A stretch of 64,000 nucleotides of DNA from Agromyces luteolus. GTDB taxonomy: Bacteria; Actinomycetota; Actinomycetes; Actinomycetales; Microbacteriaceae. Under the pieces are notes generated by a model. The model had not been told where the DNA came from. It searched no databases and worked only from the letters and a program-made list of their open reading frames with translations. Positions 31,466 to 31,837 of the stretch are shown here, in pieces. The position numbers were made by a program, and so were the translations under genes. How positions within the stretch are numbered: the stretch's first letter is position 1; every line of letters begins with the position of its first letter. The stretch lies in the NCBI RefSeq assembly GCF_009729855.1, contig NZ_WODA01000025.1:248001-312000 (forward strand), written 5' to 3'.

Positions 31466-31494
31466 TTCCGTCACTCGGCCACCGGTGCTACCAT
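31466..31494 (+). promoter_or_regulatory. Candidate promoter of the SOS-box gene
   Basis: TTCCGT (31466-31471) and TACCAT (31489-31494) are 17 bp apart. The -10 abuts the LexA-type operator, so repressor binding would block the start point. Confidence 0.5.
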
Positions 31495-31510
31495 TCGAAC
31501 AGAGTTTCGA
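31495..31510. promoter_or_regulatory. LexA-type SOS box
   Basis: TCGAACAGAGTTTCGA matches the Gram-positive/actinobacterial LexA consensus TCGAAC-N4-GTTCGA with one mismatch and is embedded in a wider inverted repeat (31493-31512, ATTCGAA/TTCGAAT arms). It lies 15 bp before the start codon of the next gene. Confidence 0.65.
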
Positions 31511-31525
31511 ATGTCGGAGGTCGGG

Positions 31526-31810
31526 ATGCAGCGGACGACGGAACCGGCGGAAGTGTGGACGAGCGCCTCGGGCGCTCCCGAGCGGCTCGTGTGGCGCGCT
31601 CGCCGCTTCCGGGTCGACGACATGCCCACGCCGCTCGTCGGGCCGGCGGACTGGTGGCTCGCGTTCGCGGGAAGCGATACGGGCGCGGGGCGCGCGCCGC
31701 TGGCGATCACCGGATGGCGCTTCCAGGCGAGCAGCCCCGAGGGCGAGACGCACGTGTTCGACGTCGGCCACGACGGCACGCACTGGCACGTGCTGCGGGT
31801 GTTCGACTGA
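31526..31810 (+). CDS. Small protein behind an SOS box, resembles DUF6504 of translesion polymerase modules
   Basis: 94 residues, no membrane segment. The pattern PERLVWRARRFRVDD, then a WW pair, then ITGWRFQASS and a terminal WHVLRVFD resembles the DUF6504 domain that accompanies ImuB-type Y-family polymerases in actinobacteria; this is a by-eye resemblance. The ATG at 31526 has GGAGG six bases upstream (31515-31519). It stands alone between sepH and convergent clpX, with its own promoter, LexA box and terminator, so it is a predicted DNA-damage-inducible single gene. Confidence 0.65.
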   Translation: MQRTTEPAEVWTSASGAPERLVWRARRFRVDDMPTPLVGPADWWLAFAGSDTGAGRAPLAITGWRFQASSPEGETHVFDVGHDGTHWHVLRVFD

Positions 31811-31821
31811 ACCGATCCGCT

Positions 31822-31837
31822 CCGGCGAGAGCGCCGG
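31822..31837 (+). terminator. Hairpin after the SOS-box gene
   Basis: CCGGCG-AGAG-CGCCGG. A 16-bp perfect palindrome CCGGTCCCGGGACCGG follows at 31858-31873, closer to the clpX stop; either may serve the convergent pair. Confidence 0.5.

Follow-up and report, generated by a model that had tools for sequence, protein, structure and literature searches.

The window, that is, the whole stretch of 64,000 nucleotides of Agromyces luteolus DNA that was analysed, contains a small gene standing alone between sepH upstream and the convergently oriented clpX downstream (NCBIfam names), with no polymerase gene beside it. As read from the sequence, the open reading frame comprises 94 codons on the + strand, from the ATG at 31526 to the stop codon at 31808-31810. 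The features of the gene and its surroundings are the following:

31466-31471, + strand: possible, weak -35 element TTCCGT, 17 bases 5' of the -10
31489-31494, + strand: -10-like TACCAT (pattern TANNNT), read from the sequence and conserved in its placement at orphan loci
31495-31510, + strand: LexA/SOS box TCGAACAGAGTTTCGA, read from the sequence and kept across the family
31516-31520, + strand: ribosome binding site GGAGG, read from the sequence
31526-31810, + strand: gene for the 94-residue orphan ImuB-C/DUF6504-type protein (P0001), stop codon counted in
31822-31837, + strand: GC hairpin without a T-run, 3' of the stop codon, unsupported as a terminator

The box TCGAACAGAGTTTCGA lies directly behind TACCAT, agrees with the actinobacterial SOS-box consensus, TCGAACNNNNGTTCGA, at all but one of its 12 fixed bases, and forms the core of a 22-base palindrome, CATTCGAA-CAGAGT-TTCGAATG, at 31492-31513. 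Several boxes in the accessible lists for Streptomyces venezuelae are of the same type as TCGAACNNNNGTTCGA (PMC9380542). The near-consensus SOS operator abutting a -10 element, and the 94-residue gene with its ribosome binding site, are thus present as described in the initial annotation; a sigma-70 promoter scan of the region upstream of the gene returned no promoter. The terminator that had also been assigned to the gene is not supported: the hairpin lacks a T-run, a terminator scan of the region 3' of the gene found none, the folding of the hairpin region is ordinary (z = -1.69), and by eye no matching hairpin was seen in nine related 3' sequences.

The open reading frame is a real gene under purifying selection, with dN/dS values of 0.11-0.46 against eight orthologues chosen from the 12 other Agromyces-type loci, and with third codon positions differing most often. 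The nearest named relatives of the protein, at 89-90% identity, come from Agromyces kandeliae and A. binzhouensis. Searched alone against Pfam, the window protein matched only PF20114 (DUF6504), with 13.7 bits (E = 0.074) against a gathering cut-off of 24.2, and an NCBIfam search with it gave zero matches; with its 94 residues and this sole Pfam listing, it lacks a Y-family polymerase-like domain. The resemblance to DUF6504 that had been proposed from the sequence is therefore below threshold for the single protein and stands at the level of the family. A PF20114 match at E ≤ 1 was obtained for 35 of 74 orphan proteins (best E = 5.4e-8), one of which, L053, exceeds the cut-off with 30.4 bits. 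All 13 further relatives from the same search that are linked to a DnaE2B polymerase (see below) match PF20114, and hhalign comparison of these proteins with the alignment of the 74 orphans, which contains orphans only and no DnaE2B-linked proteins, yielded, across the full length, a probability of 98.6 and an E-value of 1.4e-15 (with six intermediates added, 99.0 and 7.7e-18). An earlier 80-row alignment including the six intermediates was used for the profile searches of genomes, the comparison with ImuB tails and the search of solved structures. The absence of any profile similarity to DUF6504, named in advance as grounds for abandoning the proposal, is not what the profile comparison found, and the homology of the orphan family to DUF6504 is firm at the level of sequence profiles.

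PF20114 also covers the C-terminus of two alphaproteobacterial ImuB proteins, those of Shinella (25.2 bits, above the cut-off) and Paracoccus (21.6 bits, below it), so that DUF6504 corresponds to what Aravind et al. 2013 called ImuB-C (PMC3765255), and the tie between DUF6504 and ImuB drawn in the initial annotation is borne out. In the ImuB of A. luteolus itself, PF20114 found nothing at E ≤ 1; this ImuB has a tail that runs colinear with the orphan protein and shows a weak likeness to it (hhalign probability 25, E = 7.7e-4), and hmmsearch of the orphan profile against ImuB tails returned no significant domain, the scores not exceeding 11.4 bits (Z = 1). The homology claim does not draw on these direct comparisons with ImuB tails. 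Judged by its sequence, the window protein is a divergent, free-standing ImuB-C-type protein.

The predicted fold is all-beta, with six strands and a mean pLDDT of 80.4, residues 50-57 falling below 50. W64, R65 and W87 are invariant in the 74 orphans, and the six predicted strands together with the invariant W87 agree with the published description of ImuB-C as a domain rich in beta structure whose C-terminal Trp is conserved (PMC3765255, in its accessible part). A search of solved structures found no relative of the orphan family. Foldseek with the predicted model of the window protein gave no match at E ≤ 0.001, and the top VIA match was a kinase lobe (Z 5.2, rmsd 1.9, 52 aligned residues), so that the comparison speaks neither for nor against a shared barrel fold. 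For the modelled ImuB-C barrel, too, the available text of PMC12926913 states that its authors found no close structure.

The 64-kb window contains 18 matches to the box core at ≤1 mismatch, against 20.5 expected, and in the whole genome (3.9 Mb) the 12-base pattern occurs 64 times at ≤1 mismatch, against 9 times for the reversed pattern. By itself, the lone box at the window gene is therefore not beyond chance, and its significance comes from its conservation at the gene across relatives, despite how common such sites are in the window and the genome. We scored the best box from -200 to +40 of the start at 115 loci of relatives, made up of 100 of the 121 places found by the single-sequence search (the 21 omitted being mostly the weakest) and 15 named loci, and including the window's own locus as well as one locus twice (L014/L108). 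The box had 0 mismatches at 59 loci, 1 at 41, 2 at 10 and 3-5 at 5, so that 15 of the 115 carried two or more; among 2097 random windows from the same loci the corresponding counts were 3 (0 mismatches), 7 (1), 62 (2) and 2025 (3-6). A box without counterparts in relatives, which had been set out beforehand as an argument against SOS control, is thus not what the 115 loci revealed. Exclusion of 13 DUF6504-type loci, six intermediate DnaE2B-linked ones, three weak paralogues and two duplicates (L108, and L082, whose protein is identical to that of L081) leaves 91 orphan-type loci, of which 53, 33, 4 and 1 have 0, 1, 2 and 3 mismatches, respectively. The weak paralogues L130, L135 and L142 are boxless (5, 5 and 4 mismatches); they reside in genomes G028, G055 and G103, each of which also has a boxed copy.

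The motif TANNNT, starting -16 to -5 before the box, was present at 83 of 90 orphan loci (those with ≤2 mismatches, the single locus with 3 being left out), compared with 0/90 and 1/90 in two equally long control windows farther upstream. The box travels with the orphan gene even though the neighbours differ between genera: at Agromyces-type loci the orphan sits after sepH, and other genera show other neighbours, in a comparison that rests on crude gene calls and leaves the single-gene status outside the window approximate. A conserved box with a -10 element just 5' of it therefore puts the LexA-type site in the start region of a promoter that is itself conserved. LexA is encoded in the A. luteolus genome, where the lexA promoter (L208) contains a box-like TCGAACGGATGTTTGT with two mismatches and, by eye, a second site with the half-site AGTTTCGAATG, as at the window gene. 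Taken together, the window gene is probably a damage-switched, single-gene member of the predicted LexA/SOS regulon.

Only two of the listed genome sites are perfect boxes. One lies directly 5' of an intact imuA'-imuB-dnaE2 cassette (box at C18:27319, imuB at C18:28106, dnaE2 at C18:29698-33189), which is located on the same contig as the window gene (C18:279526), ~246 kb from it. With sepH and clpX as neighbours and the cassette at this distance, the gene is as solitary and as far from imuB and dnaE2 as originally noted. The other perfect box, at G000:C20:104872-104887 (L168), is found at the start of a radical-SAM gene of the Rv2578c family, whose best NCBIfam score is with the intein-containing model of that family.

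The DUF6504-type relatives and those of the Agrococcus/Nesterenkonia type share a different genomic setting. All 19 are encoded on the same strand as, and 0 to ~6 kb upstream of, another DnaE polymerase, which is about as far from DnaE1 as from DnaE2A. Systems with DnaE2B linked only to ImuB-C have been described (PMC12926913, accessible text), and the 19 linked relatives match them; we borrow the name DnaE2B from that paper as a working label for these polymerases. In a tree built on 97 columns, which are few, a single branch with SH-aLRT support of 97 parts 89 orphan rows from the 19 DnaE2B-linked rows; seven short or duplicate rows were left out, and L130 and L135 were kept with the orphans. 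Both forms coexist in some genomes, G035, G110 and G167 among them. Nine of the linked proteins (L124, L131-L133, L136, L138, L140, L143 and L144) have a QQLFA/RLFA-like tail that is absent from the window protein and that we assume may be a clamp-binding-like motif.

Relatives were detected in 105 of 199 genomes of the family by the single-sequence search and in 116 of 199 by the profile search, with the close orphan-type form in 80. In an order-level sample, 53 of 297 genomes matched, 13 of them from the gene's own family, the other 40 matches being mostly weak. Presence of the orphan, DnaE2A and DnaE2B was assigned by hand from E-values (partial DnaE2B matches in G019, G061, G176 and G192 scored as present, G003 as DnaE2B-operon type and not orphan, and the 66% complete G099 as lacking DnaE2); on this basis, 141 of the 199 genomes have DnaE2A, 50 have DnaE2B, 6 have both and 14 have neither. 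DnaE2A is present in 74 of the 80 orphan genomes, and the remaining 6 all have DnaE2B. All 14 genomes that have neither DnaE2 type also lack the orphan (Fisher P = 0.001, kinship ignored); 11 of the 14 are smaller than 2.5 Mb. By genus, it was found in 39 of 78 with a DnaE2 type and 0 of 7 without (P = 0.014) and, for DnaE2A alone, in 37 of 60 against 2 of 25 (P = 3e-6), kinship being ignored in both cases. Since 67 of the 141 DnaE2A genomes lack it, the orphan is optional. With 80 of 80 orphan genomes positive for a DnaE2 type, the distribution fits the initial proposal of a free-standing accessory of mutagenic repair.

An origin as a phage gene was rejected, with no match among 50,697 phage records. 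Two copies were found on plasmids, both in records annotated as hypothetical protein. In the Gryllotalpicola protaetiae plasmid NZ_CP032625.1 (L239, 3864-5249), the orphan is divergent from a 112-residue gene and an SRAP gene, and at L121 the orphan is directly followed by a gene whose product is homologous to the 112-residue protein (41% over 80 residues). In the copy on the Microbacterium hominis plasmid NZ_CP070347.1 (L238, 4947-5210), the annotated start is preceded, at a distance of 28 bases, by TAGAACAAAGGTTCTA, a palindromic variant of the box.

At a few loci the orphan lies close to other repair genes. It is within ~5 kb of imuA' and imuB at L050 and L052-L055, and the short contig of L051 has imuA' at its edge. 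The ImuB tail is intact in 30 of 30 best-scoring ImuB loci and in 12 of 12 further loci, which were chosen for short or fragmentary matches or to broaden the check, 7 of the 12 coming from orphan genomes. Replacement of a lost ImuB tail is thereby ruled out in the genomes checked, and where the tails are intact the orphan has to supplement the mutasome, compete with the tail or serve another partner.

Such another partner might be a different SOS factor, a DinB-type polymerase or SRAP, in which case the co-occurrence with DnaE2 would reflect a full SOS repertoire. Published standalone ImuB-C genes are, in the accessible account, mostly beside dinB and in some cases with SRAP (PMC3765255), and the A. 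luteolus genome holds three further Y-family genes and one SRAP gene. An SRAP gene is also situated ≤1.2 kb from 7 of the 91 orphan loci, on the same strand in 6 of the 7, where ~0.4 would be expected by chance within 5 kb of 91 loci given ~1.4 SRAP genes per genome (an estimate), and ≤3 kb from 11 of the 19 DnaE2B-linked loci. Against this explanation, which we consider doubtful though worth keeping in view, the adjacency is confined to those 7 loci out of 91, 8 of the 14 DnaE2-less genomes have SRAP and all of them lack the orphan, and no box at ≤2 mismatches turned up in the 3-3.5 kb surrounding each of the three Y-family genes. Less probable again is a DNA-binding lesion sensor needing no polymerase partner, a role first proposed for ImuB-C by Aravind et al. 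(PMC3765255, accessible text) and compatible with the invariant Trp and Arg residues; later modelling, as far as its text is available, has ImuB-C contacting DnaE2 and ImuA (PMC12926913), and our structure comparison, which gave no convincing match of any kind, retrieved no DNA-binding relative.

The two remaining explanations both appear very improbable. Decay of a DnaE2B-ImuB-C operon that left the orphan as a remnant would agree with its relatedness to the DnaE2B-linked proteins, but the dN/dS values, the intact frame and box, the split in the tree (well supported, on few columns) and the genomes harbouring both forms all stand against it; the purifying selection largely refutes this origin. 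The lowest probability of all goes to a box that is a chance match or a property of the neighbouring gene: common as such sites are in this genome, relatives from many genera retain the box at this gene although the neighbours differ, with the -10 just 5' of it, and chance is rejected on account of the conservation (53 perfect and 33 one-mismatch boxes at 91 loci) and of the -10 found at 83 of 90.

Box, homology and co-occurrence lead us to favour, with a probability of roughly 0.55, a protein that is made upon DNA damage and assists or modulates mutagenesis by DnaE2. LexA would block the promoter until damage triggers LexA cleavage, upon which the protein would accumulate and dock on DnaE2, or on ImuA'. 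Docking on DnaE2 would use the surface modelled for the C-terminal barrel of ImuB itself, and the docked protein would promote, limit or retarget translesion synthesis, acting as an activator or a brake. Since the genome has its own ImuB with an intact tail, the orphan would add to or compete with this tail and not replace a lost one. In the accessible modelling, ImuB-C contacts the PHP domain of DnaE2 and ImuA (PMC12926913); in mycobacteria, removal of ImuB-C is reported to leave the ImuB-ImuA' binding in place, which the domain appears to stabilise (PMC11791113, accessible part). We also entertain, tentatively, a more specific idea, in which the free ImuB-C lineage of Microbacteriaceae, under LexA control and with a timing of its own, exchanges with or displaces the ImuB tail or the DnaE2B-linked ImuB-C and so acts in trans as a dial or brake on mutagenesis. 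If true, this would be the first ImuB-C that regulates a complete mutasome rather than being a part of it.

Compared with the ImuB tail (PF20114), the orphan protein shares homology at the family level, a predicted all-beta fold, small size and the link to SOS; it differs in being free-standing, with 94 residues and no polymerase-like part, in scoring below the Pfam cut-off and in coexisting with an intact ImuB. Standalone ImuB-C is known from operons with dinB, dnaE2, umuC, SRAP, Ku and others (PMC3765255, PMC6511836, PMC8072749, PMC12926913, each in its accessible text), among them lexA-imuY-imuB-C-dnaE2 of Deinococcus, lexA-imuB-C-polY of Geobacter and DnaE2B-[ImuB-C] of actinobacteria (PMC8072749, PMC6511836, PMC12926913). 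The stand-alone domain is common to all of these and, by the available descriptions, SOS control to the Deinococcus and Geobacter systems, whereas the orphan has no neighbouring polymerase, carries its own box and promoter and forms a separate branch of the tree. The actinobacterial ImuA'-ImuB-DnaE2 mutasome is encoded in the same genome and is likewise boxed, with its perfect box directly upstream; relative to it, the orphan is an extra part, ~246 kb off and missing in 67 of 141 DnaE2A genomes. In the literature searched, the accessible main-text passages describe no single-gene, separately LexA-controlled ImuB-C lineage beside a complete mutasome; searches for DUF6504 by name found nothing, and those for LexA or SOS in Microbacteriaceae or Microbacterium found nothing relevant. 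Standalone ImuB-C itself is already known, but such a lineage looks new.

ImuB-C has been called the least characterised module of the mutasome (PMC6511836), and the role of a standalone ImuB-C protein is said to be not clear (PMC8072749), both in the accessible text. A separate ImuB-C encoded beside an intact mutasome allows testing whether the domain promotes or restrains mutagenesis. The orphan may tune how readily damaged cells mutate, and it adds a common gene to those predicted to make up the SOS regulon in a large family of bacteria.
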